A stretch of DNA of 64,000 nt from Catenisphaera adipataccumulans (lineage in GTDB: Bacteria; Bacillota_I; Bacilli_A; Erysipelotrichales; Erysipelotrichaceae): positions 124,001 to 188,000 of the forward strand of contig NZ_JACHHK010000002.1 of NCBI RefSeq assembly GCF_014202755.1, given 5' to 3'. This document shows positions 44,270 through 63,447 of the stretch, piece by piece; the stretch's first letter is position 1; each line of letters opens with the position of its first letter. The position numbers and the translations under genes are program-made. Below the pieces are notes generated by a model. The model ran no database searches, was not told where the DNA came from, and saw only the letters and a program-made list of their open reading frames with translations.

Positions 44270-44325
44270 TGATATAATGGAAGTGGCCTATAGAGGGGGT
44301 CAAAAAGGAGAAGGGAGGTGTAACA
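44270..44325 (+). promoter_or_regulatory. Promoter and stem-loop leader of group B gene B1
   Basis: TGA-TATAAT (44270-44278), then 11 nt and the leader element GGCCTATAGAGGGGGTC (44285-44301), then GGGAGGTGTAACA before the ATG. No -35 is seen. Confidence 0.75.
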
Positions 44326-47016: not shown

Positions 47017-47023
47017 GAAGTAC

Positions 47024-47053
47024 ACGGCATCGAATTATCGATGCCGTTTTTTT
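47024..47053 (+). terminator. Terminator after B1
   Basis: ACGGCATCGA/TCGATGCCGT with T6-7. Nearly the same hairpin follows all five group B genes at the same distance from the stop codon. Confidence 0.88.
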
Positions 47054-47146
47054 ATTGAAACATACAAGGAAGAAAATGTGATTGACTGAGATCGATTAAG
47101 CAAACATAAATAAAAAAAATATTAATAAAGATATAGAAATCATAGA

Positions 47147-47202
47147 TGATATAATGGAAATGATCCATAGAGAGGGTCAAAAAATAGAGGGGAGGTGAAA
47201 TT
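47147..47202 (+). promoter_or_regulatory. Promoter and stem-loop leader of B2
   Basis: TGA-TATAAT 47147-47155; stem GATCC/GGGTC at 47162-47178; GGGGAGGTGAAATT before the ATG. Confidence 0.75.
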
Positions 47203-49926
47203 ATGCAATTAAAGCGTAATTCTGTTTTGAGGTGGATCGCGTTGTTTTTCTGTCTTGCGGCTTGTTTCTTCTGTTTCCGTATGACAGCATTCGCCGAGGA
47301 GACACAGTCTGCTGATGATCCGACCGTTGTTTTGGATCAGGAAACAGACAATGCAGTACAGCAGAGTACACAAAAAGAAAAAAGCATTCAAGAAACAGAA
47401 AGCAGTTCGTTATCAACTATAAATGAAACTGCGGAAACGAATGACTCTGACAAGGCGGCAGTTTCAGAGGAAACAGGAGTGAAAAAAGCGTCCACTCCAA
47501 TAACGACAGCATCTGTCGCAGAAACTGAAACAGTTGAAAAAGGTGATCATGTCTATAACACAGAAATCAGCTCTGGATCAAATCGACTGGGCTATGTGAA
47601 TGTAGATCCAGACAGTGAGCAGCGTTTGATTGATTATTATTTGAGTGCCTCATACTATGTGTCCGGAAATACAATTGTCGCGGCAAAATCGAAAAATATT
47701 ATTGCATATATCGTTCCGCAAGGTAAGGATGCAAAAAATTACAATGTTTTTCTTTCAACCGATAGTACGTTACATCTTGATCTTACAGAGGAAATTCTGA
47801 AATGGGGACAGGAACATGGAAAAAACTGGACAAAGGAAACATTGATAAAAAACTTTTCTTTTGACTTTAAAGCTGGGGCTTACTTTTATGACGAAAATGG
47901 AAAACCAGTCAACTTCATCGATCTTTCATTACCGTATTATGTCACAAATCCGTATGATTCGGGAGAACCATGGATCGACTTTTATTTCCTGAATTCATTT
48001 GACTGGAATGACTGGCGGCGAAATGAAGATCAGTCTGTAGATAGAGAAGCGGATCACATCGCCGTCGAACTCAACAATAATTCATTGCGGAAGAACGGAG
48101 AAGATCTATTAACATGTTCACTGGACGATCTGCCGTACATATCTGCTGAAGCGAATCCTGCAGGAATTCATTTTGATCCAAATTACAGAGGCATATTAAA
48201 TGTTGAATTGATCCATCAATTCACCTGTAAGTTTGAGATTGACGGCCAGAAGTATGAAATTTTAATTCATAATCCGAAAGATGTTGAGCAGTTTATTGTT
48301 GAGGACGGAACTGTAAAAAGTGAAGAAATGAATACTTCAGATGCGGACATGCGCGCCGAAATCAAGACGACGGATCAAGACGGTACAACTACGATTCGTT
48401 CCGATTCAGAGAATGAAACGATTACCGGCGTGGTCCGCGGCGATCAGATCACCTATAAGATCGATCTCGATCTGTCTGCGGAAAGAGAAATGTTGTTTAA
48501 GCTGTATCAAGGCATAGCTTTAGAGTACGCGTTTGATGCCGAGTTTTCCGAAGAAGTTCAGCAGTTTTTTGAGGATCACCGAATGGTTTTACCTTGGCTG
48601 TATATAAGCGGTCAGCCGAACAGGAAAGCGATTGAATTTTATCCGACAATTACATTTACGTTCACATTACCGAAGGATAAGGATGCAAATGGTAATTATG
48701 ATTTGATCGTTGATGAAGACGCATTAAAGAATGTTCAGCTGATCCAGGAAAACCCAAACGGTTCGCCTTTATGGCAGCTGGATCCGTCCAAGACGCAATA
48801 TGATGCAGTAAACCGGATATTGACTTTTACTGCTTATTTATCACCAGATGAAATTGTTCAGGATTTTATTAAAATTGGTGATGATAAAATATTTTATCTT
48901 GAGCATGAAAAAGTGTTGACATTGATAAATTCAATGATCGACAGTAAATTGACCGCTGTCATTTCCGGCGTGCGTGTGTCTGACTTGGCAGAAGTGGGAA
49001 AACCGTTCACTGTAAAAGCGAAGGTCTCTGGGTCTTTGGACTATATAAATGATTATCTTATAATTCTTGCTGATCCTCCTGCTCCTGCTGCAAAACCGAA
49101 CCCGGGCGGAGACTTTGAAGATGCAGATGCAGGCTGGGACGAGGATGTTTCCTATCAATCAGCCCGCCGCGCAGTCAGAATGCTTTGTGCAGTGGCTGCA
49201 GCTTCCGCAGAAGGCACTTATACAGAAGATGATCTTTATTCACCACTGAATGTTTCTGATTATGATCTGCATCAATTGCTGTTTGGTCATTTTGCCTGGA
49301 CCCATTTACAGGATCCGTCCACAAAAGACGTTATTCAATCAGAAGACAACTCTGAAGAATTCTGGTACACCGTGATCATTCCGTCGCTGGATATCACGAA
49401 AGAAGTCGAAGGGATCAACACAGATCAGGAATTCAATTTTGAACTGAAACTGGATGATGCAGCTATGGCAGGACCGTTCAACGGCACGACCTACAATGCC
49501 GAACTGCATGAAAATGGTACAGTTCAAAACATTGCGGTCAACTTCAAGAACGGTGTGGCAACATTCAAATTGAAGAATGGTCAGACCATCCGCATTATTG
49601 TTCCGTTCGATACGCACTTCACGTTAAGAGAGACCGATCATAACGGCTACTTTGTTACGATCGACAAGAACGGAAACAGGATCTTCAGTGATACGTTAAG
49701 TGGTATCATTGAATCCTACACAAGCCTGGAAGATATCGAAGCAAACAAGAATGCCTATACGTTTACAAATGAGTATGAAGAACCGGAACAACCGGAAGAA
49801 CCAAAAGAAGCAAACGTAGAGGAAACAAGAAGCACAGGCGTACAGACCGGTGTGATGACACAGACCGGCATGTGGATGGTGCTTGCCCTGGCAAGTATCG
49901 TGATCCTGCACAAACAACGTGCGTAA
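47203..49926 (+). CDS. Group B pilin-like surface protein B2
   Basis: A 907-residue paralogue of B1. Signal peptide as in B1 with AFA-EE. The low-complexity region and the variable domain (~120-345) differ most from the others (SGSNRLGYVNVDPDSEQRL and a unique WIDFYFLNSFDWNDW). Conserved blocks GQKYEILIHNP, GVVRGDQITYK and GVRVSDLAEVGKPF follow. FctA-like domain with Lys733, Glu810 and Asn856. The stalk is the shortest of the five family tails together with B3-B5, then GVQTG (879-883). From the DFEDADAGWDED segment to the end it is almost identical to B1 at the DNA level. Confidence 0.82.
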   Translation: MQLKRNSVLRWIALFFCLAACFFCFRMTAFAEETQSADDPTVVLDQETDNAVQQSTQKEKSIQETESSSLSTINETAETNDSDKAAVSEETGVKKASTPITTASVAETETVEKGDHVYNTEISSGSNRLGYVNVDPDSEQRLIDYYLSASYYVSGNTIVAAKSKNIIAYIVPQGKDAKNYNVFLSTDSTLHLDLTEEILKWGQEHGKNWTKETLIKNFSFDFKAGAYFYDENGKPVNFIDLSLPYYVTNPYDSGEPWIDFYFLNSFDWNDWRRNEDQSVDREADHIAVELNNNSLRKNGEDLLTCSLDDLPYISAEANPAGIHFDPNYRGILNVELIHQFTCKFEIDGQKYEILIHNPKDVEQFIVEDGTVKSEEMNTSDADMRAEIKTTDQDGTTTIRSDSENETITGVVRGDQITYKIDLDLSAEREMLFKLYQGIALEYAFDAEFSEEVQQFFEDHRMVLPWLYISGQPNRKAIEFYPTITFTFTLPKDKDANGNYDLIVDEDALKNVQLIQENPNGSPLWQLDPSKTQYDAVNRILTFTAYLSPDEIVQDFIKIGDDKIFYLEHEKVLTLINSMIDSKLTAVISGVRVSDLAEVGKPFTVKAKVSGSLDYINDYLIILADPPAPAAKPNPGGDFEDADAGWDEDVSYQSARRAVRMLCAVAAASAEGTYTEDDLYSPLNVSDYDLHQLLFGHFAWTHLQDPSTKDVIQSEDNSEEFWYTVIIPSLDITKEVEGINTDQEFNFELKLDDAAMAGPFNGTTYNAELHENGTVQNIAVNFKNGVATFKLKNGQTIRIIVPFDTHFTLRETDHNGYFVTIDKNGNRIFSDTLSGIIESYTSLEDIEANKNAYTFTNEYEEPEQPEEPKEANVEETRSTGVQTGVMTQTGMWMVLALASIVILHKQRA

Positions 49927-49933
49927 GAAGTAC

Positions 49934-49962
49934 ACGGCATCGATGATTCGATGCCGTTTTTA
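49934..49962 (+). terminator. Terminator after B2
   Basis: ACGGCATCGA/TCGATGCCGT hairpin followed by T4-5. Confidence 0.85.
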
Positions 49963-49992
49963 AATGATCGATCTTTCAAAACATTTCATAAA

Positions 49993-50026
49993 CAGAAAAA
50001 GCGCCGTTGGGTCGGCGCTTTCTCTG
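49993..50026 (-). terminator. Terminator of the hsp20 operon
   Basis: On the minus strand GAAAGCGCCG-acccaa-CGGCGCTTTTTC. It separates the convergent B2 gene from the hsp20 genes. Confidence 0.8.
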
Positions 50027-50054
50027 CATATTAGGAAAGGAAGAGATTAGAAAA

Positions 50055-50456
50055 TTACTCGATGGAAATATACTGTTTCGTCTGTTCGATCTTCTGTGCT
50101 TCTGTCGGCAGCGTGATCTTCAATTCACCGTTGTCGAACGAAGCTTTGATGTCGCTTTGTTTATAGCGATCACCAATGTAGAAGCTTCTCGAGAACGTTC
50201 CTTCATAACGCTCTTTGCGGATCACACGTCCTTTGTCATCCGATTCATCGTTATGACTGTTGCGTGTTGCCGTGACGGTCAATGTACCGTCATTCAGTTC
50301 GATTTTGACATCTTCTTTTTTAAAGCCCGGCATTTCCATGTTCAGTTCATAGTTGCCGTCTTTCTCACGAATATCTGTCTTTAACATGCCGTTGGATGGG
50401 CTGACATAGTCATTAAATAAATCGTTGAAAAATCCAAATCCCGGATAGTATCTCAT
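50055..50456 (-). CDS. Small heat-shock protein (Hsp20), third gene of the operon
   Basis: A 133-residue alpha-crystallin-type chaperone that binds unfolding proteins under stress. It starts MRYYPGFGFFNDLFNDYV, the crystallin domain covers about 32-128 (DGNYELNMEMPGFKKEDVKIEL, GTFSRSFYIGD, FDNGELKITLP). The C-terminal I-x-I oligomer motif appears as YISIE. AAGGAGG precedes ATG 50456. It is the most divergent of the three tandem copies and is co-transcribed with them from the CIRCE-controlled promoter. Confidence 0.92.
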   Translation of the reverse strand: MRYYPGFGFFNDLFNDYVSPSNGMLKTDIREKDGNYELNMEMPGFKKEDVKIELNDGTLTVTATRNSHNDESDDKGRVIRKERYEGTFSRSFYIGDRYKQSDIKASFDNGELKITLPTEAQKIEQTKQYISIE

Positions 50457-50469
50457 AATATTGCCTCCT

Positions 50470-50862
50470 TTATTCAATCGCAATGTATTGCTTCTGATCT
50501 TCTACTTTTGCTGCCTGTGTCGGTAACGTAATCTTCAATTCACCGTTGTCAAACGAAGCCTTGATATCGCTTTGTTTGTAGCCGTCGCCGATATAGAAGC
50601 TTCTCGAGCAAGTGCCGGAGTAGCGTTCCTTACGAACAACGCGTCCTTGATCATCCTTTTCTGAAGAATCAGAAGACTTGTTGGCGGTGATGTTCAAATA
50701 ACCGTCTTTCAGTTCGATCTGAATGTCTTCTTTGCGGTAGCCTGGTACTTCCATGTTCAATACATAGTTACCGTCTTTCTCATGGATATCAGTTCTTAAC
50801 AGATTCGAGTCTGTCGAGAAAAAGTCATCAAATAAATGAAAATGATCTGGATAATACATCAT
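50470..50862 (-). CDS. Small heat-shock protein (Hsp20), second gene of the operon
   Basis: A 130-residue Hsp20. It starts MMYYPDHFHLFDDFFSTDS, with the crystallin domain (DGNYVLNMEVPGYRKEDIQIEL, SRSFYIGDGYKQSDIKASFDNGELKITLP) and the end YIAIE. It is very close to the third copy in the second half (SDIKASFDNGELKITLPT shared), which points to recent duplication or gene conversion. AAAGGAGG precedes the ATG at 50862; the second Met one codon later could also serve. Spacing to its neighbours is about 13 nt on either side. Confidence 0.92.
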   Translation of the reverse strand: MMYYPDHFHLFDDFFSTDSNLLRTDIHEKDGNYVLNMEVPGYRKEDIQIELKDGYLNITANKSSDSSEKDDQGRVVRKERYSGTCSRSFYIGDGYKQSDIKASFDNGELKITLPTQAAKVEDQKQYIAIE

Positions 50863-50875
50863 ATGAATTCCTCCT

Positions 50876-51271
50876 TTATTCAATTTCGATATACTGTTTC
50901 GGTTCTTCAACCTTTTCAACTTTACTTGGCAAAGTGATCTTCAGTTCGCCGTTGTCAAAGACTGCCTTGATATCTTCCTGCTTGTAACCATCGCCGATGT
51001 AGAAGCTTCTTGAGCAGCTGCCTTCATAACGTTCCTTGCGAAGGAGCTTGCCGTTTTCGTCTTTTTCATCGTTGTTCTGTTTATGCGTAGCAGATATGGT
51101 CAGATAGCCATCGTCCAGAGAAATCTTTACATCTTCTTTCTGATAGCCCGGCATTTCCATGTTCAAAAGATAATTTCCGTCTTTTTCCGTGATATCGGTT
51201 TTCATGAAACCTCTTGGCTGCGTAAATAAGTCATCAAACAAATCAAAGTGATTTAATTCTGGATATAACAT
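50876..51271 (-). CDS. Small heat-shock protein (Hsp20), first gene of the operon
   Basis: A 131-residue Hsp20, first behind the promoter. It starts MLYPELNHFDLFDDLFTQP, with the crystallin domain (DGNYLLNMEMPGYQKEDVKISL, SRSFYIGDGYKQEDIKAVFDNGELKITLP) and the end YIEIE. AGGAGGTG precedes ATG 51271. Its promoter region holds two CIRCE-like elements, so HrcA control is expected. The operon is inserted, in the opposite direction, between group B genes B2 and B3. Confidence 0.93.
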   Translation of the reverse strand: MLYPELNHFDLFDDLFTQPRGFMKTDITEKDGNYLLNMEMPGYQKEDVKISLDDGYLTISATHKQNNDEKDENGKLLRKERYEGSCSRSFYIGDGYKQEDIKAVFDNGELKITLPSKVEKVEEPKQYIEIE

Positions 51272-51290
51272 ATTAACACCTCCTAGATGA

Positions 51291-51360
51291 TTAGCACTCT
51301 TACCTTTCATCTGCTAATACTATAGCACACTTTTTAGCAGTGTCAACACTTAAGTGCTAA
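51291..51360 (-). promoter_or_regulatory. hsp20 promoter flanked by two CIRCE-like operators
   Basis: Leftward promoter: TTGACA (51346-51341), 16-nt spacer, TGC-TATAGT (-10 at 51324-51319). CIRCE-like 1: TTAGCACTC (51291-51299), N9, ATCTGCTAA (51309-51317). CIRCE-like 2: TTAGCAGTG (51334-51342), N9, AAGTGCTAA (51352-51360). Both keep the exact 9-nt spacing of the HrcA operator TTAGCACTC-N9-GAGTGCTAA; each has one good and one weaker half. Copy 2 covers the -35, copy 1 lies just downstream of the -10. Confidence 0.88.
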
Positions 51361-51460
51361 TTTTTTTTAAAAGATTTTTTTATTGGTATGTTATGATGGA
51401 AAATTAAATTTAAATATAATGCCGAATCTTAAAAAGATATATATAAACAATACATTTATA

Positions 51461-51517
51461 TGATATAATATTTATGATCCATAGAGAGGGGTCAAAGAGA
51501 AGAAGGGAGGTGTAACT
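51461..51517 (+). promoter_or_regulatory. Promoter and stem-loop leader of B3
   Basis: TGA-TATAAT 51461-51469; GATCC/GGGTC leader stem at 51476-51493; GGGAGGTGTAACT before the ATG. The ~100 bp before it are AT-rich and hold no gene. Confidence 0.75.
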
Positions 51518-54286
51518 ATGTTAGTAAAGCGTAATTCTGTTTTAAGGTGGATCGCATTGTTTTTCTGTCTTGCGGCTTGTTTCTTCTGTTTCCGGATGGC
51601 TGCATTTGCCGAGGAAACACAGTCTGTAGATGATCCGGCTGTTGTCCTGAATCAGGAAACAGACAATACAACACAGCGGGATGAACAGACGGAGGCTGTT
51701 TCAGAAAAGGAGCAGAATGTTCCGACAGCCGAAACCAGTACATCTACAGAAGTCAGTGATGCAGAAACGATTGATACTGCGGCGGCTGATACTGAAACTG
51801 CGAATGATACCACAGAGGAATCAGATACGGCGAAAGCAGCAGAAACTGAGAATGTTGAAAAAGGTGACCGTGTTTACGATACGGAAAACAGTTTCGGATT
51901 TGTCTTTATAGGTTATATGAATACAGACACAGTTAGTAAGCAAAGATTAGCTGATTATTTATTGTATTCTTCATGTTACAAACAAGGAAATGTTTATGTT
52001 TTTACTAAATCGAATAACATTCTTGTCTATGCTGTCCCAGAGGGTGAGAGCCCGGAAGTTTACAATCTTTTCGCTCCCCCATATTCTGGATTAAGACTGG
52101 ATTTAACATCTGAAATTCTTAAATGGGGACAGGAGCATGGAAAAAACTGGACAATGGAAACATTGGTAAAGGATTTTACATTTGATTTGAAGACTGGACT
52201 GTATTTTTATGATGAAAATGGAAATCCGATCGATTTTTTCGACTTATCACTGCCTGATGCACAGCAGGAGCCATATGTTGGTTATTGGACAAATAGTTCT
52301 TATAATCTGACACCACATGAAGACCGCAAATTTGACAAAACAGGAGATCATTTGGTATTTACGGCCGAAAATAATTACTGGTCGCTGGCTGATGAAAACG
52401 GCTTAATGAACTGCCCATTACAATATCTAAACGGACTTGAGTTTATACAAGGCACATCGTTTGTTAATTTTAATCCGACTTATAATGGCAAACCTTTCAG
52501 AGGTTTACTGAATGTGGAAGCCAGACAGGAAATATTATGCAAATTTGAGATCGATGGACAGAAATATGAAATTTTGATTCATAATCCGAAAGATGTCTCA
52601 CAATTTGTCGTTGAAGACGGAATCCCAACCGGAAAAGAAGACAAAACCTCAGATGCGGATATGAATGCCGAGATCAAAACAACGGATAAAAATGGCAAAA
52701 TCACGATTCGCTCTAATTCAGAGAACAAAACGATTACCGGCGTAGTTCGCGGAGATCAAATCACTTACAAGATCGATATCGATCTTTCTTTGGAAAGAGA
52801 GATGCTGCAGAAATTGTATCAAGGCATTACTCTATATTGCTACAATCTTGGTGGAGATTATTTGGATGAAGTTAAGCAAATTGCCAAAGAACACAACATC
52901 GCTCTGCCTAATCTGTATATGAATACTTTCCGTGATTTGTCAAAGACTGAGGATTTTACTGAATTTTATCCGTCCATTAAGTTTACATTCACATTACCGG
53001 ATGACAAGGATGCCAACGGCAACTATGATCTGATCGTTGATGAAGATGCATTGAAGAATGTTCAGTTGATTCAGACAAATAACTCTAACAAGAAATATCC
53101 ATATCCGAAGGATTCGAATCCTTTATGGCGGCTGGATCCGTCCCAGACGGAATACAATGCAGAGAAACGGGAACTGACTTTTGTCGCTTTTATATCACCG
53201 GATCAAATCGTTCAGGATTTTATCAAAAAAGAAAATGAAGATACCCAGAAAACAGAGAAGGTACCATATTTCGATCAAGAAAAAGCAATGGCTTTATTGG
53301 ATTCGATGATCGGTGATCAATTGACCGCAGTCATTTCCGGCGTGCGTGTATCTGACTTAGCAGAAGTAGGAAAACCATTGACCGTGGAAGCGAAAGTTTC
53401 CGGATCATTGAATTATATGAATGGTTTTAGGGAATCGATTATTGGTCAGTCAGCACCTTTAGGTGCAAAACCGAATCCGGGCGGAGACTTTGAAGATGAA
53501 GACGCAGGCTGGGATGAGGATGTTTCCTATCAATCTGCCCGCCGTGCTGCCAAGGTATTCCGTGCGATGGCTGCTGCTTCAGAACAGGAAAGTTTATATC
53601 AGCCATTGAATATTTCTGATTATGACCTGAGTCAGCTGTTGTTTGGTCATTTTGCCTGGACCCATTTACAGGATCCGTCCACAAAAGACGTTATCCAATC
53701 AGAAGACAACTCTGAAGAATTCTGGTACACCGTGATCATTCCGTCGCTGGATATCACGAAAGAAGTCGAAGGGATCAACACAGATCAAGAGTTCAATTTT
53801 GAACTGAAACTGGATGATGCAGCTATGGCAGGACCGTTCAACGGCACGACCTACAATGCTGAACTGCATGAAAACGGCACAGTCAAAAACGTTGCGGTCA
53901 ACTTCAAGAATGGTGTGGCAACATTCAAATTGAAAAATGGTCAGACCATCCGCATTATTGTTCCGTTCGATACGCACTTCACATTAAGAGAAACCGATCA
54001 TAACGGCTACTTTGTTACGATCGACAAGAACGGAAACAGGATCCTCAGTGATACGTTAAGCGGCGTCATTGAATCCTACACAAGCCTGGAAGATATCGAA
54101 GCAAACAAGAATGCCTATACGTTTACAAATGAGTATGAAGAACCGGAACGACCGGAAGAATCAAAAGAAGAGAACGTAGAGGAAACAAGAAGCACAGGCG
54201 TACAGACCGGTGTGATGACACAGACCGGCATGTGGATGGTGCTTGCCCTGGCAAGTATCGTGATCCTGCACAAACAACGTGCGTAA
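51518..54286 (+). CDS. Group B pilin-like surface protein B3
   Basis: A 922-residue group B protein, the longest. Signal peptide 1-31, then a long Glu/Thr/Ala region. Its variable domain (~130-350) is close to that of B4 (SNNILVYAVPEGESPE, KDFTFDLKTGLYFYDENG shared), so B3 and B4 form a sub-pair. Conserved blocks GQKYEILIHNP, GVVRGDQITYK, TFTLPDDKDANGNYDL and GVRVSDLAEVGKP follow, with an insertion of NNSNKKYPYPKDSNP near residue 525. FctA-like domain with Lys748, Glu825, Asn871; GVQTG (894-898), membrane helix, HKQRA. Confidence 0.82.
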   Translation: MLVKRNSVLRWIALFFCLAACFFCFRMAAFAEETQSVDDPAVVLNQETDNTTQRDEQTEAVSEKEQNVPTAETSTSTEVSDAETIDTAAADTETANDTTEESDTAKAAETENVEKGDRVYDTENSFGFVFIGYMNTDTVSKQRLADYLLYSSCYKQGNVYVFTKSNNILVYAVPEGESPEVYNLFAPPYSGLRLDLTSEILKWGQEHGKNWTMETLVKDFTFDLKTGLYFYDENGNPIDFFDLSLPDAQQEPYVGYWTNSSYNLTPHEDRKFDKTGDHLVFTAENNYWSLADENGLMNCPLQYLNGLEFIQGTSFVNFNPTYNGKPFRGLLNVEARQEILCKFEIDGQKYEILIHNPKDVSQFVVEDGIPTGKEDKTSDADMNAEIKTTDKNGKITIRSNSENKTITGVVRGDQITYKIDIDLSLEREMLQKLYQGITLYCYNLGGDYLDEVKQIAKEHNIALPNLYMNTFRDLSKTEDFTEFYPSIKFTFTLPDDKDANGNYDLIVDEDALKNVQLIQTNNSNKKYPYPKDSNPLWRLDPSQTEYNAEKRELTFVAFISPDQIVQDFIKKENEDTQKTEKVPYFDQEKAMALLDSMIGDQLTAVISGVRVSDLAEVGKPLTVEAKVSGSLNYMNGFRESIIGQSAPLGAKPNPGGDFEDEDAGWDEDVSYQSARRAAKVFRAMAAASEQESLYQPLNISDYDLSQLLFGHFAWTHLQDPSTKDVIQSEDNSEEFWYTVIIPSLDITKEVEGINTDQEFNFELKLDDAAMAGPFNGTTYNAELHENGTVKNVAVNFKNGVATFKLKNGQTIRIIVPFDTHFTLRETDHNGYFVTIDKNGNRILSDTLSGVIESYTSLEDIEANKNAYTFTNEYEEPERPEESKEENVEETRSTGVQTGVMTQTGMWMVLALASIVILHKQRA

Positions 54287-54293
54287 GAAGTAC

Positions 54294-54322
54294 ACGGCAT
54301 CGATGATTCGATGCCGTTTTTT
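54294..54322 (+). terminator. Terminator after B3
   Basis: ACGGCATCGA/TCGATGCCGT hairpin followed by T5-6 and CTATGG, the same bases that lead into the cca and rmuC promoters at the next two copies. Confidence 0.87.
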
Positions 54323-54393
54323 CTATGGAAGAAATATTGAGAAGATTTGTAAAGGAACATCATATTATTTTTAAAATATTATAAAAATTATGG

Positions 54394-54448
54394 TGTTATA
54401 ATAAAAATGATCCATAGAGAGGGTCAAAAAATAGAGGGAGGTGAAATT
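54394..54448 (+). promoter_or_regulatory. Promoter and stem-loop leader of B4
   Basis: TGT-TATAAT 54394-54402; GATCC/GGGTC stem 54409-54425; GGGAGGTGAAATT before the ATG. Confidence 0.75.
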
Positions 54449-57160
54449 ATGCAAGTAAAGCGTAATTCTGTTTTGAGGTGGATCGCGTTGTTTTTCTGTC
54501 TTGCGGCTTGTTTCTTCTGTTTCCGGGTGACAACGTTTGCCGAAGAGACACAGTCTGCCGATGATCCGGCTGTTGTTTTAAATCAAGAAACAGACAATAC
54601 AGCACAGCAGGATGCACAGACGGAGGCTGTTTCAGAAACGGAGCAGAATGTTTCGACAGCAAAAACCAGTACATCTACAGAAGCCAGTGATGCAGATACG
54701 ATTGATACTGCGGCGGCTGATACTGAAACTGCGAATGATACCACAGAGGAATCAGATACGGCAGAAGCGACAGAAACTGAGAATGTTGAAAAAGGTGACC
54801 GTGTTTACGACACGAAAAACAGTTTCGGATATGTCTATTTAGGTTATGCAAGTAAAGACGCAGTTAGTAAACAACAATTATTCGATATGTTTTTGTATTA
54901 TTCATACTATAAACAAGGAAATGTTTATGTTTTTACTAAATCGAATAACATTCTTGTCTATGCTGTTCCAGAGGGTGAGAGCCCGGAAGATTACAATGCT
55001 TTCACTACCCCATATTCCGAATTAGAATTGGATTTAACATCTGAAATTCTTAAATGGGGACAGGAGCATGGAAAAAATTGGACAAATGAAACATTGGTAA
55101 AGGATTTTACATTTGATTTGAAGACTGGACTGTATTTTTATGATGAAAATGGAAATCCGATCGATTTTTTCGACTTTTCAATTCCTTACGCAAAGCCGTA
55201 TATTAATTATTGGACATATGGTTATTTTACTCTGACATCGGACAGAAAATTTGACACAACAAAGAATAGCGTGATATTCACAGCTGAGAATAATTACTGG
55301 TCGTTGGCGGATGAAAACGGCTTTATGAGCTGTCCAATACAATATTTATCCAGTTTTGGTTTTATACAGGAACCGTCACTTGTTCATTTCAATCCATCTT
55401 ACAATGGCAAACCTTTCAGAGGCTTATTGAATGTGGAATACAGACAGGAAGTGTTATGTACCTTTGAAATCGACGGACAGAAATATGAAATTCTGATCCA
55501 TAATCCGAAAGATGTCACACAATTTGTCGTTGAAGACGGAATCCCAACCGGAAAAGAAAACACAAAATCCGATGCGGATATGAATGCCGAGATCAAGACA
55601 AAGGATCAAAATGGGAAAACCACGATTCGCTCTAATTCAGAGAACGAAACGATTACCGGCGTAGTTCGCGGAGATCAGATCACTTATAAGATCAATATCG
55701 ATCTTTCTTTGGAAAGAGAGATGTTGCAGAAATTGTATCAAGGCATTGCTCTATATTGCAATTTTGATGGAAATTATTCGGATGAAATTCGGCAAATTGC
55801 CAAAGAAAACAATATCGCTCTGCCTATGCCGTATATTTTTTCTTACCGTCTTGATACGCCAAATACTGAGTATACTGCCTTTTATCCATCTATCACGTTT
55901 ACATTCACATTGCCGGATGACAAGGATGCAAACGGTAACTATGATCTGATCGTTGATGAAGAGGCACTGAAGAATGTACAGCTGATCCAAGAAGATGGAA
56001 CACCGTTATGGTGTCTGGATCCGTCCCAGACAAAATATGATGCAGAGAAACGGGAACTGACTTTTGTCGCTTATATATCACCGGATCAAATCGTTCAGGA
56101 TTTTATTGAAATCGAAGAGAACGGAGTCAAGAAAAAAGTACCACATTTCGATCAGGAAAAAGCGCAGGCTTTATTGGATTCGATGATCGGTGACCAATTG
56201 ACTGCAGTCATTTCCGGCGTACGTGTGTCTGACTTGGCAGAAGTCGGAAAACCATTTACCGTGAAAGCGAAAGTTTCCGGATCATTGGATTATAAGAATG
56301 GCTTTGAACTATCGCTTATTGGTCAACCCGTATCAGGTGCGAAACCGAATCCGAGCGGCGGCTTCGAAGATGAAGATGCAGGCTGGGACGATGAAGTTTC
56401 CTATCAATCAGCCCGCCGCGCAGCAAAGGTATTCCGTGCGATGGCTTCTGCTTCAGAACAGGAAAGTTTATATCAGCCATTGAATGTTTCTGATTATGAT
56501 CTGCATCAGCTGCTGTTTGGTCATTTTGCCTGGACCCATTTACAGGATCCGTCCACAAAAGACGTTATCCAGACAGAAGACAATTCCGAAGAATTCTGGT
56601 ACACCGTGATCATTCCGTCACTGGATATCACGAAAGAAGTCAAAGGAATCAACACAGATCAGGAATTCAATTTCGAACTGAAACTGGATGATGCATCTTT
56701 GGCAGGACCGTTCAACGGTACGACCTACAATGCCGAACTGCACGAAAACGGCACAGTCAAAAACGTTGCGGTCAACTTCAAGAACGGTGTGGCAACATTC
56801 AAATTGAAGAATGGTCAGACCATCCGCATTATTGTTCCGTTCGATACGCACTTCACATTAAGAGAAACCGATCATAACGGCTACTTTGTTACGATCGACA
56901 AGAACGGAAACAGGATCCTCAGTGATACGCTGAGAGGCGTCATTGAATCCTACACAAGCCTGGAAGATATCGAAGCAAACAAGAATGCCTATACGTTTAC
57001 AAATGAGTATGAAGAACCGGAACGACCGGAAGAATCAAAAGAAGAGAACGTAGAGGAAACAAAAAGCACAGGCGTACAAACCGGTATGATGACACAGACC
57101 GGCATGTGGATGCTGCTTGCCCTGGCAAGTATCGTGATCCTGCACAAACAACGTGCGTAA
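54449..57160 (+). CDS. Group B pilin-like surface protein B4
   Basis: A 903-residue group B protein. Signal peptide MQVKRNSVLRWIALFFC... with TFA-EE cleavage; low-complexity region nearly the same as B3; variable domain a sister of B3 but with a distinct stretch (PYAKPYINYWTYGYFTL). Conserved middle blocks as in the others. FctA-like domain with Lys729, Glu806 and Asn852. Stalk, GVQTG (875-879), membrane helix and HKQRA. ATG 54449 is set by GGGAGGTG; the frame is open back to 54407 by chance and would include the leader hairpin. Its downstream flank carries the cca promoter. Confidence 0.82.
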   Translation: MQVKRNSVLRWIALFFCLAACFFCFRVTTFAEETQSADDPAVVLNQETDNTAQQDAQTEAVSETEQNVSTAKTSTSTEASDADTIDTAAADTETANDTTEESDTAEATETENVEKGDRVYDTKNSFGYVYLGYASKDAVSKQQLFDMFLYYSYYKQGNVYVFTKSNNILVYAVPEGESPEDYNAFTTPYSELELDLTSEILKWGQEHGKNWTNETLVKDFTFDLKTGLYFYDENGNPIDFFDFSIPYAKPYINYWTYGYFTLTSDRKFDTTKNSVIFTAENNYWSLADENGFMSCPIQYLSSFGFIQEPSLVHFNPSYNGKPFRGLLNVEYRQEVLCTFEIDGQKYEILIHNPKDVTQFVVEDGIPTGKENTKSDADMNAEIKTKDQNGKTTIRSNSENETITGVVRGDQITYKINIDLSLEREMLQKLYQGIALYCNFDGNYSDEIRQIAKENNIALPMPYIFSYRLDTPNTEYTAFYPSITFTFTLPDDKDANGNYDLIVDEEALKNVQLIQEDGTPLWCLDPSQTKYDAEKRELTFVAYISPDQIVQDFIEIEENGVKKKVPHFDQEKAQALLDSMIGDQLTAVISGVRVSDLAEVGKPFTVKAKVSGSLDYKNGFELSLIGQPVSGAKPNPSGGFEDEDAGWDDEVSYQSARRAAKVFRAMASASEQESLYQPLNVSDYDLHQLLFGHFAWTHLQDPSTKDVIQTEDNSEEFWYTVIIPSLDITKEVKGINTDQEFNFELKLDDASLAGPFNGTTYNAELHENGTVKNVAVNFKNGVATFKLKNGQTIRIIVPFDTHFTLRETDHNGYFVTIDKNGNRILSDTLRGVIESYTSLEDIEANKNAYTFTNEYEEPERPEESKEENVEETKSTGVQTGMMTQTGMWMLLALASIVILHKQRA

Positions 57161-57214
57161 GAAGTACACGGCATCGATAACTCGATGCCGTTTTTTCTAT
57201 GGTATAATGTTTCC
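57161..57214 (+). promoter_or_regulatory. B4 terminator fused to the cca promoter
   Basis: ACGGCATCGA (57168-57177)/TCGATGCCGT (57182-57191) and T6 end B4. It runs straight into TGG-TATAAT (57200-57208) placed 6 nt before the cca ATG. The block 57161-57220 matches 61446-61505 (before rmuC) at all but one position. Confidence 0.85.
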
Positions 57215-58537
57215 ATGGAATTACCGCAGTACATACGATCCATTATTAAACAATTGAACACAGCTGGGTATCAGGCATATGTGGTCGGCGGCAGTGTACG
57301 GGATGCTTTATTGGGGAAAAAACCTCATGATTATGACGTTACGACCGATGCCCGTCCGGAACAGATCATCAATCTGTTTGACCATACAGCACCGACCGGC
57401 ATCAAGCATGGCACTGTAACTGTATTAAGTGAACAGCCTGTAGAAGTGACAACGTTCCGCACAGAATCACAATACCATGATCATCGCCATCCGGACCATG
57501 TTGCGTTTGTTTCAAATCTGAAAGAAGATCTTGCCCGCAGGGATTTTACGGTGAACGCTATGGCGTATCATCCGCAAAGCGGTCTGATCGATCCGTTCGG
57601 CGGTCAGGAAGACTTGAAAAAGAAGCAGATCCGCTGTGTGGGAGATCCGCGGCAGCGTTTTGAGGAAGATGCCCTGCGCTTGATGCGCGCGCATCGTTTT
57701 GCCGCTCAGCTGGATTTTACCATTGAAGAAGAAACCGCAAAGGCCATCGAAGAATGCGCAAATACGATCTGTTATGTGTCTGTGGAACGCATTCGTGAAG
57801 AACTGTTTAAGATTCTGCGATATAATGCCTATGAAATTGAAAATATGACAAAGTTATTGTCAAATTGGATGCCAGAATTGGAGACGTGCAAAGCGTGTGA
57901 ACAGAATACGCCTTGGCACAATGCCAATGTGCTTCATCATATTCTTGCATCCGTTACATACCTCAACCCTTTTGATGAGACATTGGCATTGACTTTGTTA
58001 TGTCACGATCTAGGCAAGCCCGCATGTAAGACGACAGTAGACGGCATCGACCATTTTAAAGGTCATCCGCTTGTCAGTGCACAGATTGCTAAACGAATCT
58101 GCCGGGATCTCAAATGTACCCGCAGACAGCAGGAAGTGATCCCGTTGCTTGTGCGTTACCACGATGTTAAAATGAAAGACCCATTAGGCGTGGTCTTCCG
58201 TTTTCGGGTCCAGTACCAATGGGACGATGAAAGAATGCAGCAGCTGCTGGAAGTGAAGCGCTGCGATTTGATGGCGCATTCTGAATTCGGACGGCGCAGT
58301 CTCCGCCTGCTTGACCGGCTGAAAGAAGTATACCAAGAATGCTTGGAACAAAGGCCGATGACATTACAGGAACTGGCCATCGACGGCAGTGACGTCAGCC
58401 GTGCCGGATTTCAAGGCAAAGAGATCCGCAATGTCCTGCAGAACTGCCTGGAATATTGTTTCTATCATCCAGATCAAAACAATCGGGAATTTTTATTGCC
58501 GTATATCGAGCAGGATCCATGGAAACTATCCTCTTAA
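57215..58537 (+). CDS. cca: CCA-adding tRNA nucleotidyltransferase
   Basis: A 440-residue enzyme that builds or repairs the CCA end of tRNAs. The nucleotidyltransferase head has GGSVRDALLGKKPHDYDVTTDA with the two metal-binding Asp, then RRDFTVNAMAYHP and RLMRAHRFAAQLDF for template-free NTP choice; an HD-type domain (LLCHDLGKPACKT) follows. ATG 57215 is 6 nt after TATAAT with no ribosome site, so a leaderless mRNA is predicted. The gene lies alone between two group B genes of the same direction and its promoter is part of a duplicated flank. Confidence 0.93.
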   Translation: MELPQYIRSIIKQLNTAGYQAYVVGGSVRDALLGKKPHDYDVTTDARPEQIINLFDHTAPTGIKHGTVTVLSEQPVEVTTFRTESQYHDHRHPDHVAFVSNLKEDLARRDFTVNAMAYHPQSGLIDPFGGQEDLKKKQIRCVGDPRQRFEEDALRLMRAHRFAAQLDFTIEEETAKAIEECANTICYVSVERIREELFKILRYNAYEIENMTKLLSNWMPELETCKACEQNTPWHNANVLHHILASVTYLNPFDETLALTLLCHDLGKPACKTTVDGIDHFKGHPLVSAQIAKRICRDLKCTRRQQEVIPLLVRYHDVKMKDPLGVVFRFRVQYQWDDERMQQLLEVKRCDLMAHSEFGRRSLRLLDRLKEVYQECLEQRPMTLQELAIDGSDVSRAGFQGKEIRNVLQNCLEYCFYHPDQNNREFLLPYIEQDPWKLSS

Positions 58538-58657
58538 TTATGTTTTTTCTTGAAGAGACCGTAAGACTTTGTAAAATCAGCACCAATGTGCTGATTTTTT
58601 TATGATTATTAATAATATGTAAAAAAGAAGTAGTATTGATGTTATATAAAAAATAGA
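58538..58657 (+). other. Short spacer after cca
   Basis: Holds a terminator-like hairpin TCAGCAC-caat-GTGCTGA followed by T7 (about 58577-58601), then AT-rich DNA. No gene seen. Confidence 0.65.
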
Positions 58658-58712
58658 TGGTATAATAGATTTGACCTATAGAGAGGGTCAAAGAGAGAAG
58701 GGAGGTGTAACG
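58658..58712 (+). promoter_or_regulatory. Promoter and stem-loop leader of B5
   Basis: TGG-TATAAT 58658-58666; stem GACC/GGTC within 58673-58689; GGGAGGTGTAACG before the ATG. The A-U pair replaces the other copies' variation and keeps the stem. Confidence 0.75.
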
Positions 58713-61445
58713 ATGTTAGTAAAGCGTAATTCTGTTTTAAGGTGGATGGTGTTGTTCTTCTGTCTTGTGGTTTGTTTCTTCTGTTTCCGTGTTGCAGCAT
58801 TTGCCGAGGAGACCCAGTCCGTTGATGATCCGGCCGTTGTTCTGAATCAGGAAACCGACAGTACAGCACAGCAGGATGCACAGACGAAAGCTGTTTCAGA
58901 AACGGAGCAGAAAGCTCCTGCAGCAAAAACCAGTACATCGACAGCTATCAATGATGCAGAGACGAGTAAGACTGCGGCAGCGAATGATGCTACAGAACAA
59001 CCGGTTACTGAACAAGCAGCTGCAGAGAGCCAAACTGTTGAAAAAGGTGATCAAGTTTACAGCACCGAAAAAAGTCGTGGATTTGTTTATATAGGTTACA
59101 AGAGTAAAGATTCAGTCAGTCAGCAAAATATCCGCAATGATTTACTGTATTCCTCATATTATCGTTATGGGGATTTTGGTGTCCTGGCAAAATCGAAAAA
59201 TATTATTGCCTATATTGTTCCAGCGGGTGATGATCCGAAACTTTACAACAATTTATTCATTCCAAATTCTGGTTTTGCTTTAGAGGTGCCAGATGAAATT
59301 CTTTTGTGGGGACAGCAGCATGGAAAAAACTGGACAAAAGATACATTGATAAAAAATTTTATTCTTGATTATAGAATCAAAATATATTTTTATGATGAAA
59401 ATGGAAATCCAGTCGACTTCATTGATCGTCCGCAAGAACATGGGATGGATTCAGACGATTGGAATCAAGTGGACAAAAGTAGTTTTCATTATGAGATATA
59501 TAATGAATATATCCATGTACCAAGCAAAAACGAAACAGATTTAGATATTGCGGCGGATCATTTGATATTTACTGCTGTAAATAACTATTATCAGGATAGT
59601 GCCGGTTCGAAAACTTGCAGGATTGGAGAAATGACACAGGTTAATAAATTTGGCTCAAGATTTCTAGAGTCTGTCTTTTTCCCGTGGTTTCATTTCAATC
59701 CAAATTACAGAGGTAAACTGAATATTGAATTTAGACAGGAAGCTTTATGCAAATTTGAGATTGATGGGCAGAAGTACGAAATTTTATTCCACAACCCGCG
59801 AGATGTTGCGGAGTTTGTCGTAGAAGACAATACCACAAAAAATGACCGTACCGATGCATCAAATGCAGATATGAACGCCGAGATCAAAACAACAGACCAA
59901 AACGGTAAAACCACAGTTCGTTCTAATTCAGAAAACGAAACAATTACTGGCGTAATTCGCGGAGATCAAATCACTTACAATATCAATATTGATCTTTCTA
60001 CCGAAAGAGAAATGCTGCTCAAACTGTATCAAGGTATTGCATTACACAACAATCCGGATGCCAAATATTCGGATAAAGCTCTGGAACAGGCGGAAAAACT
60101 TCATATAACTCTGTCTCAGTTAATTTATTGGGCTTTTAGTAATGATGAGGAAAACAAACTATTCCACCCAACGATTACATTTACGTTCACGTTGCCAAAA
60201 GACAAAGACGCAAACGGAAACTATGATTTGATTGTTAATGAAGATACACTGAAGAATGTTCAGTTGATCCAGGAAAATCCGAATGGATCGCCTTTATGGC
60301 AAATCGATCCATCTGAAACAACTTACAATGCGAATCTTAGGGAGTTAAAGTTTACAGCTTATTTATCGCCGGATCAAATCATTCAGGATTTCGATGAAAG
60401 TAAAGATGATTTAGAGGAATGGTATGCATCCGTTCTGAAACTTTTAAACTCGATGATCGGCAGTAAACTGACTGCGGTCATTTCAGGCGTGCGTGTGTCT
60501 GATTTGGCAGAGGTCGGAAAACCATTTACCGTGAGAGCTAAGGTCTCTGGGTCTTTGGATTATACGAAAAGTTATGAATTATTAGTTGGGCCGACACATC
60601 CTGTTGGTGCGAAACCGAATCCGGGCGGCGGCTTCGAAGATGCGGACGCAGACTGGGACGACGAAGGTTCTTTTAAATCAGCCCGACGCGCGGTCAGAAT
60701 GTTCCGCGCAATGGCCGCTGCTTCTGCAGATGATGCCTATACAATGAATGATCTGTATTCAGTATTGGATTCAACAGATTATGATTTCCATCAATTACTG
60801 TTCGGTCATTTTGCCTGGACCCATTTACAGGATCCGTCCACAAAAGACGTTATCCAGACAGAAGACAATTCCGAAGAATTCTGGTACACCGTGATCATTC
60901 CGTCACTGGATATCACAAAAGAAGTCAAAGGAATCAACACAGATCAAGAGTTCAATTTTGAACTGAAACTGGATGATGCATCTTTGGCAGGACCATTCAA
61001 CGGCACGACCTACAATGCCGAACTGCATGAAAACGGTACAGTCCAGAACGTTGCGGTCAACTTCAAGAACGGTGTGGCAACATTCAAATTGAAGAATGGT
61101 CAGACCATCCGCATTATTGTTCCGTTCGATACGCACTTCACGTTAAGAGAAACCGATCATAACGGCTACTTCGTTACGATCGACAAGAACGGAAACAGGA
61201 TCCTCAGTGATATGCTGAGAGGCGTCATTGAATCCTACACGAGCCTGGAAGATATCGAAGAAAACAAGAATGCCTATACGTTTACAAATGAGTATGAAGA
61301 ACCGGAACGACCGGAAGAATCAAAAGAAGAGAACGTAGAGGAAACAAGAAGCACAGGCGTACAGACCGGCATGATGACACAGACCGGCATGTGGATGGTG
61401 CTTGCCCTGGCAAGTATCGTGATCCTGCACAAACAACGTGCGTAA
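58713..61445 (+). CDS. Group B pilin-like surface protein B5
   Basis: A 910-residue group B protein and the most diverged in its first two thirds. Signal peptide MLVKRNSVLRWMVLFFC..., AFA-EE. Variable domain (~120-350) with unique stretches (DRPQEHGMDSDDWNQVDKS). Conserved blocks GQKYEILFHNP, GVIRGDQITYN, TFTLPKDKDANGNYDL, GVRVSDLAEVGKPF. FctA-like domain with Lys736, Glu813 and Asn859; GVQTG (882-886), membrane helix, HKQRA. The last ~230 codons and the terminator are nearly identical to B4 in DNA. ATG 58713 follows GGGAGGTG. Confidence 0.82.
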   Translation: MLVKRNSVLRWMVLFFCLVVCFFCFRVAAFAEETQSVDDPAVVLNQETDSTAQQDAQTKAVSETEQKAPAAKTSTSTAINDAETSKTAAANDATEQPVTEQAAAESQTVEKGDQVYSTEKSRGFVYIGYKSKDSVSQQNIRNDLLYSSYYRYGDFGVLAKSKNIIAYIVPAGDDPKLYNNLFIPNSGFALEVPDEILLWGQQHGKNWTKDTLIKNFILDYRIKIYFYDENGNPVDFIDRPQEHGMDSDDWNQVDKSSFHYEIYNEYIHVPSKNETDLDIAADHLIFTAVNNYYQDSAGSKTCRIGEMTQVNKFGSRFLESVFFPWFHFNPNYRGKLNIEFRQEALCKFEIDGQKYEILFHNPRDVAEFVVEDNTTKNDRTDASNADMNAEIKTTDQNGKTTVRSNSENETITGVIRGDQITYNINIDLSTEREMLLKLYQGIALHNNPDAKYSDKALEQAEKLHITLSQLIYWAFSNDEENKLFHPTITFTFTLPKDKDANGNYDLIVNEDTLKNVQLIQENPNGSPLWQIDPSETTYNANLRELKFTAYLSPDQIIQDFDESKDDLEEWYASVLKLLNSMIGSKLTAVISGVRVSDLAEVGKPFTVRAKVSGSLDYTKSYELLVGPTHPVGAKPNPGGGFEDADADWDDEGSFKSARRAVRMFRAMAAASADDAYTMNDLYSVLDSTDYDFHQLLFGHFAWTHLQDPSTKDVIQTEDNSEEFWYTVIIPSLDITKEVKGINTDQEFNFELKLDDASLAGPFNGTTYNAELHENGTVQNVAVNFKNGVATFKLKNGQTIRIIVPFDTHFTLRETDHNGYFVTIDKNGNRILSDMLRGVIESYTSLEDIEENKNAYTFTNEYEEPERPEESKEENVEETRSTGVQTGMMTQTGMWMVLALASIVILHKQRA

Positions 61446-61499
61446 GAAGTACACGGCATCGATAACTCGATGCCGTTTTTTCTATGGTATAATGTTTTC
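61446..61499 (+). promoter_or_regulatory. B5 terminator fused to the rmuC promoter
   Basis: ACGGCATCGA (61453-61462)/TCGATGCCGT (61467-61476), T6, then TGG-TATAAT (61485-61493) 6 nt before the rmuC ATG. It is a near-perfect copy of the block before cca. Confidence 0.85.
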
Positions 61500-62399
61500 A
61501 TGGAAATTGTCATTTTGATCATCTTAGTTATCATTATGGTCTGCCTGATCCTGCTGATCGGAATGCTCCGGACGCAGAACGAACGCCAGATCCAAATGGG
61601 CATGACCCATCAGGAAACCCGTGACCGCCAGGAAAGCGAAGAGAAAATGCTCATGAACTTATCCAATCAGGTCGTTTCAATGCGCCGGGAACAGGCGGCT
61701 GCTTCCCAGACGACCGACCGCGTGTACGAAGATATTCAGCGCATGAATCGCGTGATGACCAATACGAAATCCCGCGGCAGCTGGGGCGAGTATCAGCTGA
61801 ACATGCTGCTGGATGTATATGTCGGGCATCAGAAGCAAATCTATGAAACCCAGTATCATCTGGCCAACGGGAAGATCGCGGATGTTGCTCTGCATCTGCC
61901 CGACAGTTCAAAGGTGTTGTGCATCGATGCGAAGTTTCCGATGGAGAACTTTGAGAAAGGCAATGAAAAAGAATTTGCGCGAAATGTAAAAAAACATATC
62001 CACGACGTTGCGGAAAAATACATCACCCCGCAGACCGCGGACCAAGCCTTGTTGTTTATTCCCAGCGAGGCTGTTTACCAATATATCTGTTCTGAGGCGA
62101 CCGATCTGCTCAATGAGGCGCTGACCAGCCACGTGCTGCTGACCTCACCGACGACCCTGGTCGGCGTCCTTTATACACTGATGGAATCAACGCGGGATTT
62201 CTACCGTGCCGAACATATGAAAGAAATCGAGAAAAACATTCTTGCCCTGCTGGAAGATGCAGATCGCTTGTGTGAACGCAGCGAAAAGGCAGAAAAATCA
62301 TTGCGTGCGCTGACGGAGCACTTTCATAAAGTATCCGTCTCTGCCGGTAAGATCGCCGGCCGCATGCATGCACTTGCGGAAGGAGAAACAGACGAATGA
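61500..62399 (+). CDS. rmuC: RmuC-family DNA recombination protein
   Basis: A 299-residue protein. An N-terminal membrane helix (EIVILIILVIIMVCLILLIG) and a coiled-coil stretch (to ~100) precede the nuclease-like RmuC core: SRGSWGEYQLNMLLD, VLCIDAKFPMENF, ALLFIPSEAVYQYI and LLTSPTTLVGVLYTL. RmuC limits inversion at short repeats in E. coli. It is shorter than the E. coli protein (475). The start follows TATAAT by 6 nt without a ribosome site (leaderless). It overlaps the macro-like gene by 4 nt and heads a co-directional run of four genes. Confidence 0.92.
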   Translation: MEIVILIILVIIMVCLILLIGMLRTQNERQIQMGMTHQETRDRQESEEKMLMNLSNQVVSMRREQAAASQTTDRVYEDIQRMNRVMTNTKSRGSWGEYQLNMLLDVYVGHQKQIYETQYHLANGKIADVALHLPDSSKVLCIDAKFPMENFEKGNEKEFARNVKKHIHDVAEKYITPQTADQALLFIPSEAVYQYICSEATDLLNEALTSHVLLTSPTTLVGVLYTLMESTRDFYRAEHMKEIEKNILALLEDADRLCERSEKAEKSLRALTEHFHKVSVSAGKIAGRMHALAEGETDE

Positions 62400-62926
62400 T
62401 CACAACCATGAAAGGCAATCTCACCGGGCTGGATTTTGACATCATCGTCGATCCCAATGATGAGACACTGACTGCTGATGTCAATTCAGTCAGCCGAAAA
62501 ATATTTCGGGAAGCAGGCTATGAAATGAGCATGCACTGCCGCAATTTGGATGGCTGTGCTGTTGGGCATGCCAAAATGACGCTGGGTTTTCGTCTGCCTT
62601 CGCTGGCCGTCATCCATATGGCCGTGCCGCACTATATTGACGGCGAACACAACGAAGACATCTATCTGGAAGCGTGCTACTGGAATACCATGTGCATGGC
62701 CTATGAATTTATGGAACACAATCACATGGAAAAAGTGCACATCGCCTTTCCGGACCTGCCGACTTATCCATACCACTTTCCGCGGGAGGAAGCCTGCCGG
62801 ATCGCGGTAGATGCCGTCAACCGCATCCAGCGGGAATATCCGGACACCCAGGCCGTCCAGGTTTCATTCATCTGTGACGATGAACAGAGCTACCTGGTCT
62901 ATAAGAAGGAGCTGAGGAGTCGATGA
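62396..62926 (+). CDS. Macro-domain-like protein (ADP-ribose binding)
   Basis: A 176-residue protein whose middle matches the macro domain in pattern: GCAVGHAKMTLGFRLPSLAVIHMAVPHY, LEACYWNTMCMAYEFM and VHIAFPDLPTYPYHFPREEACRIAVDAV correspond to the G..K.T.GY.LP..iiH, the L..cy..L and the IAFP...GYP..eAA.ia segments of O-acetyl-ADP-ribose deacetylases. The N-terminal N-A-A-N catalytic loop is not obvious (VNSVSRKIFREAG), so activity is uncertain; it may be a binder of ADP-ribose or nucleotides. It overlaps rmuC and the methyltransferase gene by 4 nt each. Confidence 0.7.
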   Translation: MITTMKGNLTGLDFDIIVDPNDETLTADVNSVSRKIFREAGYEMSMHCRNLDGCAVGHAKMTLGFRLPSLAVIHMAVPHYIDGEHNEDIYLEACYWNTMCMAYEFMEHNHMEKVHIAFPDLPTYPYHFPREEACRIAVDAVNRIQREYPDTQAVQVSFICDDEQSYLVYKKELRSR

Positions 62927-63447
62927 GATCCGCCGTGGAGCAGTCGCACGCCTTTCTCAGACCGGTGCTCCATGCGCAGGCAGTCTGCATCGATGCTACG
63001 CTGGGAACCGGTCGGGATACGGCTTTCTTTCTGGCCTGCGGCGCCCGTAAAGTCTATGCCTATGAAATTCAGGAAGATGTCTTTCAGACGACCATGCGGC
63101 AATTTGATCAGAGGGTCATCGGCCGGTGTCATTCGCATGAATACATCGATGAGATCGAAGAACCTGTTGATGCCGTGATCTTTAACTTCGGCTATTGTCC
63201 CGGACATGATCCGGCGATCATGACCCAACCGGAAACCAGCCGGATCGCGGTCAGAAAAGCGGCCGATCGGCTGCGCCTAAAAGGACGCATGGCCCTGGTC
63301 TTCTATCCGCATCCGCAGGGAAGAGCAGAGGCTGAAACCATCGAAACCATGCTTCATACCTGGCCGCTCGATCAGTTTCAGATCGTGAAGGTCCGATCCT
63401 TTCATCCGGATGCGCCGTATTGGATCGGCATCGAAAAGAGGCGATAA
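62923..63447 (+). CDS. mnmM: tRNA wobble-uridine methyltransferase (MnmM/YtqB type)
   Basis: A 174-residue class I SAM-dependent methyltransferase. The SAM loop is CIDATLGTGRDTAFFL and the family landmark is FNFGYCPGHDPAIMTQPETS, as in YtqB-type proteins, known to add the methyl group in mnm5(s2)U at the tRNA wobble position. The C-terminal GRMALVFYPHPQGRAEAETIE is also typical. The first ATG overlaps the previous stop codon by 4 nt. The SRAP gene begins 1 nt after its stop. Confidence 0.87.
   Translation: MRSAVEQSHAFLRPVLHAQAVCIDATLGTGRDTAFFLACGARKVYAYEIQEDVFQTTMRQFDQRVIGRCHSHEYIDEIEEPVDAVIFNFGYCPGHDPAIMTQPETSRIAVRKAADRLRLKGRMALVFYPHPQGRAEAETIETMLHTWPLDQFQIVKVRSFHPDAPYWIGIEKRR

Follow-up and report, generated by a model that had tools for sequence, protein, structure and literature searches.

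How do two unrelated genes, cca and rmuC, come to start from almost the same 60 bp, each directly behind a member of an array of surface-type genes (B1 to B5)? An earlier note on the window (the whole stretch of DNA analyzed, 64,000 nucleotides) held that a duplication or conversion tract had run across a promoter and start codon and that cca owed its promoter to the array. We reexamined the two junctions, the genome that carries them, and the same genes in related genomes. The features are collected in Table 1.

Table 1. Features of the array, cca, and rmuC (positions within the window)
Feature	Position	Strand	Remark
B1	44326-47016
B2	47203-49926
B3	51518-54286		between hsp20 triplet and cca
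T6-CTATGG behind B3	54317-54328	+	possible remnant of cca promoter block
B4, surface-type protein, directly upstream of cca	54449-57160	+	between hsp20 triplet and cca
Terminator hairpin and T6 downstream of B4	57168-57196	+	same hairpin behind B1 to B5
Predicted leaderless promoter of cca: extended -10 element TGGTATAAT, then 6 nt before ATG	57200-57214	+	counterparts at cca in array-free relatives
cca, tRNA nucleotidyltransferase/poly(A) polymerase family, 440 aa	57215-58537	+	PF01743
Proposed fossil rmuC start, ATGGAAACTATCCTCTTAATT..., at the cca end	58519-58551	+
Terminator after cca, between proposed fossil start and B5 promoter	58573-58604	+
B5 promoter TGGTATAAT and leader with Shine-Dalgarno sequence	58658-58712	+	common to B1 to B5
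B5, array gene inserted between cca and rmuC	58713-61445	+
Terminator hairpin and T6 downstream of B5	61453-61481	+	same hairpin behind B1 to B5
Copied cca-type predicted leaderless promoter before rmuC	61485-61499	+
rmuC, 299 aa, native start ATGGAAAT (MEI)	61500-62399	+	PF02646
Two genes overlapping rmuC end to end	62396-62926, 62923-63447	+	conserved after cca-rmuC in relatives

The shared block behind B4 and B5

We compared the 60 bp that follow the B4 stop codon (57161-57220) with those that follow the B5 stop codon (61446-61505) and found one mismatch, a C/T difference at 57213/61498, as the earlier note had described. From 5' to 3', the block consists of the tail after the stop codon, a terminator hairpin, T6-CTA, the extended -10 element TGGTATAAT, 6 nt, and ATGGAA; beyond ATGGAA the two sequences are unrelated. 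The hairpin is strong (-17.8 kcal/mol; z, -6.1). TATAAT-N6-ATG lies at 57203 for cca and at 61488 for rmuC, which places the -10 element within 5 to 8 nt of both start codons. The terminator is found behind all five array genes, but it continues into a promoter behind B4 and B5 only; the B1 and B2 flanks diverge past the terminator and lack the promoter block. We also found the first part of the block behind B3, again as previously reported, and the two bases after its T6-CTATGG are AA, which is also compatible with ATGGAA. When we searched the whole genome for further copies of the block, the five array ends were the only sites returned.

The pattern TGNTATAAT-N6-ATG occurs at 16 sites in this genome, compared with 0 for the reversed pattern, and each of the 16 sits at an open reading frame of 128 codons or more. 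At these promoters the expected transcript start falls at the start codon, so that the genes are predicted to be leaderless. The genes at these sites presumably include mutS, folC, and rRNA/tRNA modification genes, which we named by sight of the sequence. Terminators also run straight into leaderless promoters at three other loci (L143, L144, and L151). Among the 16 sites, the B4/B5 pair agrees at 23 of 26 nonconsensus positions, and the other 119 pairs agree at 15 or fewer. The likeness of the two blocks exceeds chance and far exceeds that among the genome's other promoters of the same type. Judged from this agreement, homology of the B4 and B5 flanks is supported. The ATGGAA at the end of the block is weak evidence of copying, because it is the usual rmuC start in array-free relatives and because an unrelated leaderless gene of this genome (L149) also starts CCATGGAATTACCG, like cca.

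Several observations concern the promoter type more generally. A search of 41 related genomes showed a clear excess of TGNTATAAT-N6-ATG over the reversed pattern in most of them. In four of the genomes (G240, G047, G039, and G041), an exact 18-mer of the leaderless type recurs many times per genome; one such sequence, TGGTATAATTTAGCTATG, is found about 17 times in G240. These recurrences suggest mobile elements with leaderless genes. L149 (G000:C3:304300) starts with TCCATGGAATTACCG, 15 bases that cca shares; this agreement appears to be coincidental.

Some of the Firmicutes have been reported to contain leaderless genes in which a -10 box immediately precedes the start codon (Zheng et al. 2011, PMC3160421). 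As in those genes and in the leaderless genes of Deinococcus-Thermus (PMC12340547), TATAAT stands 6 nt before ATG, often with an extended TG, and leaves no room for a Shine-Dalgarno sequence. Unlike in those cases, the promoter here was probably duplicated with a neighboring gene and would now serve a second operon.

cca and rmuC in relatives without the array

We next consider cca and rmuC in other genomes. The array proteins were absent from all 272 other genomes of the family searched. In 17 relatives from 8 genera, cca and rmuC are codirectional neighbors, which points to an ancestral adjacency. The two genes neighbor or overlap each other within one operon, and in four relatives (G060, G210, G001, and G212) the rmuC ATG overlaps a W codon near the cca end. 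Most of the loci examined carry the same two genes behind rmuC as here. In the scanned relatives, rmuC is mostly read from the cca operon. Here, the two genes behind rmuC would depend on its predicted promoter.

A perfect TATAAT 6 to 7 nt upstream of an in-frame cca ATG was found in 9 of 31 scanned relatives (G060, G289, G205, G207, G210, G020, G215, G240, and G242). All comparison genomes belong to other genera, the nearest at 62 to 66% identity in cca; a cca scan of GTDB for relatives of the same genus returned distant genera only. G060 and G289, the two relatives highest in cca identity, both have the leaderless cca promoter. In a tree of 26 cca proteins, this genome (G000) pairs with G060 (89/97) and lies near G289 and G210, and all three of these neighbors have a leaderless promoter at cca. 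Over the whole tree, the promoter type at cca changes at least 4 to 5 times. Compared with the cca promoter here, that of G060 scores 11 and an unrelated leaderless promoter from this genome scores 14.5, so that the first is no more similar than the second; orthology of the cca promoter therefore rests on position and type rather than on sequence.

We then looked for a leaderless TATAAT promoter at the rmuC start in 12 relatives and found it in none. rmuC in the relatives mostly starts ATGGAAAT or similarly, so that ATGGAA is usual there without the array. The comparison of both loci in array-free relatives, which had been proposed as a check, therefore gave a split answer, with the promoter type present at cca and absent at rmuC. 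This distribution is most simply explained if the type is ancestral at cca and derived at rmuC. Since nine array-free relatives have a leaderless cca promoter, birth of the cca promoter from the array, as in the earlier note, is not supported. The idea of a duplication or conversion across a promoter fares better: a promoter was carried to rmuC, but the tract need not have crossed the rmuC start codon, because rmuC natively begins with ATGGAA. Most simply, the block is the promoter of cca, which traveled with an array gene to rmuC, and not an array promoter given to both genes.

The hsp20 triplet adjoins cca both here (50055-51310) and in G060 (L086 12037-13273), in the same relative orientation. 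Array genes flank the triplet on both sides here but not in G060.

The insertion point and a proposed history

We consider it probable that the cca/rmuC overlap received a duplicate of an array gene and of the cca promoter, joined there at CATGGAA, that rmuC thereby kept a promoter, and that conversion between B4 and B5 followed. In the ancestor, cca and rmuC would have overlapped in one operon, with a leaderless extended -10 element just upstream of the cca ATG. Array genes (B4, and perhaps B3 earlier) would have settled directly upstream of this promoter. An array gene, its terminator, and the adjoining cca promoter would then have been copied into the cca/rmuC overlap, either by tandem duplication of a unit running from the array gene through the cca promoter and cca to the rmuC start, with the second cca lost afterward between CATGGAA repeats, or by a single template-switching event joined at CATGGAA, with the same outcome. 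The copied cca promoter would have landed exactly before rmuC, and a remnant of the former rmuC start would have been left to decay at the cca end. Because the copied promoter stands before rmuC, rmuC and the genes behind it would stay transcribed despite the B5 terminator.

The cca end is consistent with this history. CATGGAA occurs at three places: the cca start, the cca end (the old rmuC start), and the present rmuC start. The 3' end of cca reads GATCCATGGAAACTATCCTCTTAA (..DPWKLSS*), with ATGGAAA at 58519, its ancestral place, and the gene retains CCATGGAAA where the rmuC ATG of relatives overlaps the W codon. ATGGAAA is thus present on both sides of the insertion, at 58519 and 61500, with moderate similarity beyond it. 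Read in the cca frame, the cca end gives WKLSS* and the present rmuC start gives WKLSF*; read in the rmuC frame, 58519 gives METILLIMFFL and the real rmuC gives MEIVILIILVI. Of the 475 ATGGAA sites of the contig (C2) other than the rmuC start itself, the one at 58519 matches that start best, with 15 of 26 bases agreeing after ATGGAAA, and it is one of the 27 of these sites whose first stop lies at the same offset. About 0.0014 (0.14%) of genomic windows match equally well, and cca coding constrains the initial bases of the proposed fossil. The match is moderate by itself, and its weight thus comes from its position. From its sequence and place, ATGGAAA at 58519 looks like a fossil, the former rmuC start left behind upon the entry of B5.

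We also looked for a parent locus for the left end of the B5 insertion (58552-58650), which includes the terminator after cca, and found no clear source; only the shared B promoters matched. The part upstream of B5 weakly resembles the hsp20-B3 intergenic region (z, about 3.5), but this value comes from simple shuffles and several tests, and we do not rely on it. No homology that would mark a duplication scar was detected between the regions upstream of B3 and of B4 (z, 0.2).

All five array proteins have a signal peptide-like N terminus, a DUF7601 domain, and a C-terminal membrane segment. The genes (44326-61445) are mosaics with similar 5' ends, very similar last 700 bases, and strongly variable middles, and the closest full-length pair is B3/B4. 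Their leaders (44270-44325, 47147-47202, 51461-51517, 54394-54448, and 58658-58712) are shared, each behind an extended -10 element, and all five contain the inverted repeat TGAYCYATAGAGAGGGTCA, or a close version, upstream of the Shine-Dalgarno sequence, a possible RNA hairpin or operator.

Between B4 and B5, the middles are about 40 to 80% alike, 15 of the last 461 coding bases differ (about 3%), and the flank differs at 1 of 60. The high regional identity and its abrupt end past ATGGAA are the pattern of gene conversion. The proposed fossil is far more diverged than the flank, which, together with the divergent middles, suggests an old insertion and a recent conversion. Such conversion between the 3' ends of B4 and B5 would have preserved the near identity of the two terminator-promoter blocks; in part, tighter constraint on the block could account for it instead.

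The copying may instead have run in the reverse direction, from rmuC to cca. rmuC would have had or gained a leaderless promoter after B5 entered, and conversion from the B5-rmuC junction would have rewritten the B4-cca junction, including the ATGGAA of cca. This would fit the native ATGGAA of rmuC and the cca start found here (TGGTATAATGTTTCCATGGAA; MELP), since cca in relatives mostly starts MKLP, MYLP, or MVLP. We regard this direction as unlikely, because the relatives have such a promoter at many cca starts and at none of the 12 rmuC starts scanned, and because a single base change turns K into E at cca codon 2 and ATGGAATTACCG also begins another gene here. A promoter that belonged to the array flank and was delivered to both genes, as the earlier note proposed, would fit the terminator and promoter in one homologous block and the partial copy at B3. 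However, the B1 and B2 flanks lack it, and the same promoter type is found at cca in array-free relatives; we find this origin very unlikely. Collapsed or misjoined repeats could have produced the order B4-cca-B5-rmuC in a 14-contig assembly of a repetitive array, for which the compared genomes are all of other genera. Nevertheless, an assembly error has little chance of being the explanation, given the wide divergence among the middles of the five genes, the single-base differences between the joints, and a proposed fossil start that is in keeping with a real insertion. Independent gain of a consensus leaderless promoter by cca and rmuC behind the same terminator would draw on how common the type is here and on the other terminators that run into such promoters, but it is refuted in practice by the 23 of 26 agreeing positions of the B4/B5 pair against 15 in the next best.

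Known systems and meaning

Multigene surface-protein families undergo concerted evolution by gene conversion. The array shares with them conserved 5' and 3' modules, variable middles, and near-identical ends. In contrast to those families, the homogenized tract here leaves the family and enters the promoters of housekeeping genes, and no expression-site switching is shown. Tandem duplication can also join a gene to a new promoter and so activate it; one example is PMC11111574. In that example, as in the history favored here, a duplication sets a promoter before another gene, but here it would preserve expression of the cut-off tail of an operon instead of activating a silent gene. Literature searches on a cca-rmuC operon, and on operons split with duplication of a promoter, returned nothing close.

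Transfer of the cca promoter with B5 would mean that a gene array can enter a housekeeping operon and leave it expressed, when the incoming segment carries a duplicate of that operon's promoter joined at the start codon. Leaderless promoters lend themselves to such transfer because promoter, start point, and start codon fit into about 20 bases and can move as one unit. The locus also calls for caution, as near-identical promoters beside paralogous genes need not stem from the paralogues. We suggest tentatively, as a possibility short of an even chance, that ongoing conversion between B4 and B5 keeps the promoter of cca and that of rmuC and its followers identical. If so, the surface-gene family would be a vehicle by which a housekeeping promoter is copied, spread, and made to coevolve.
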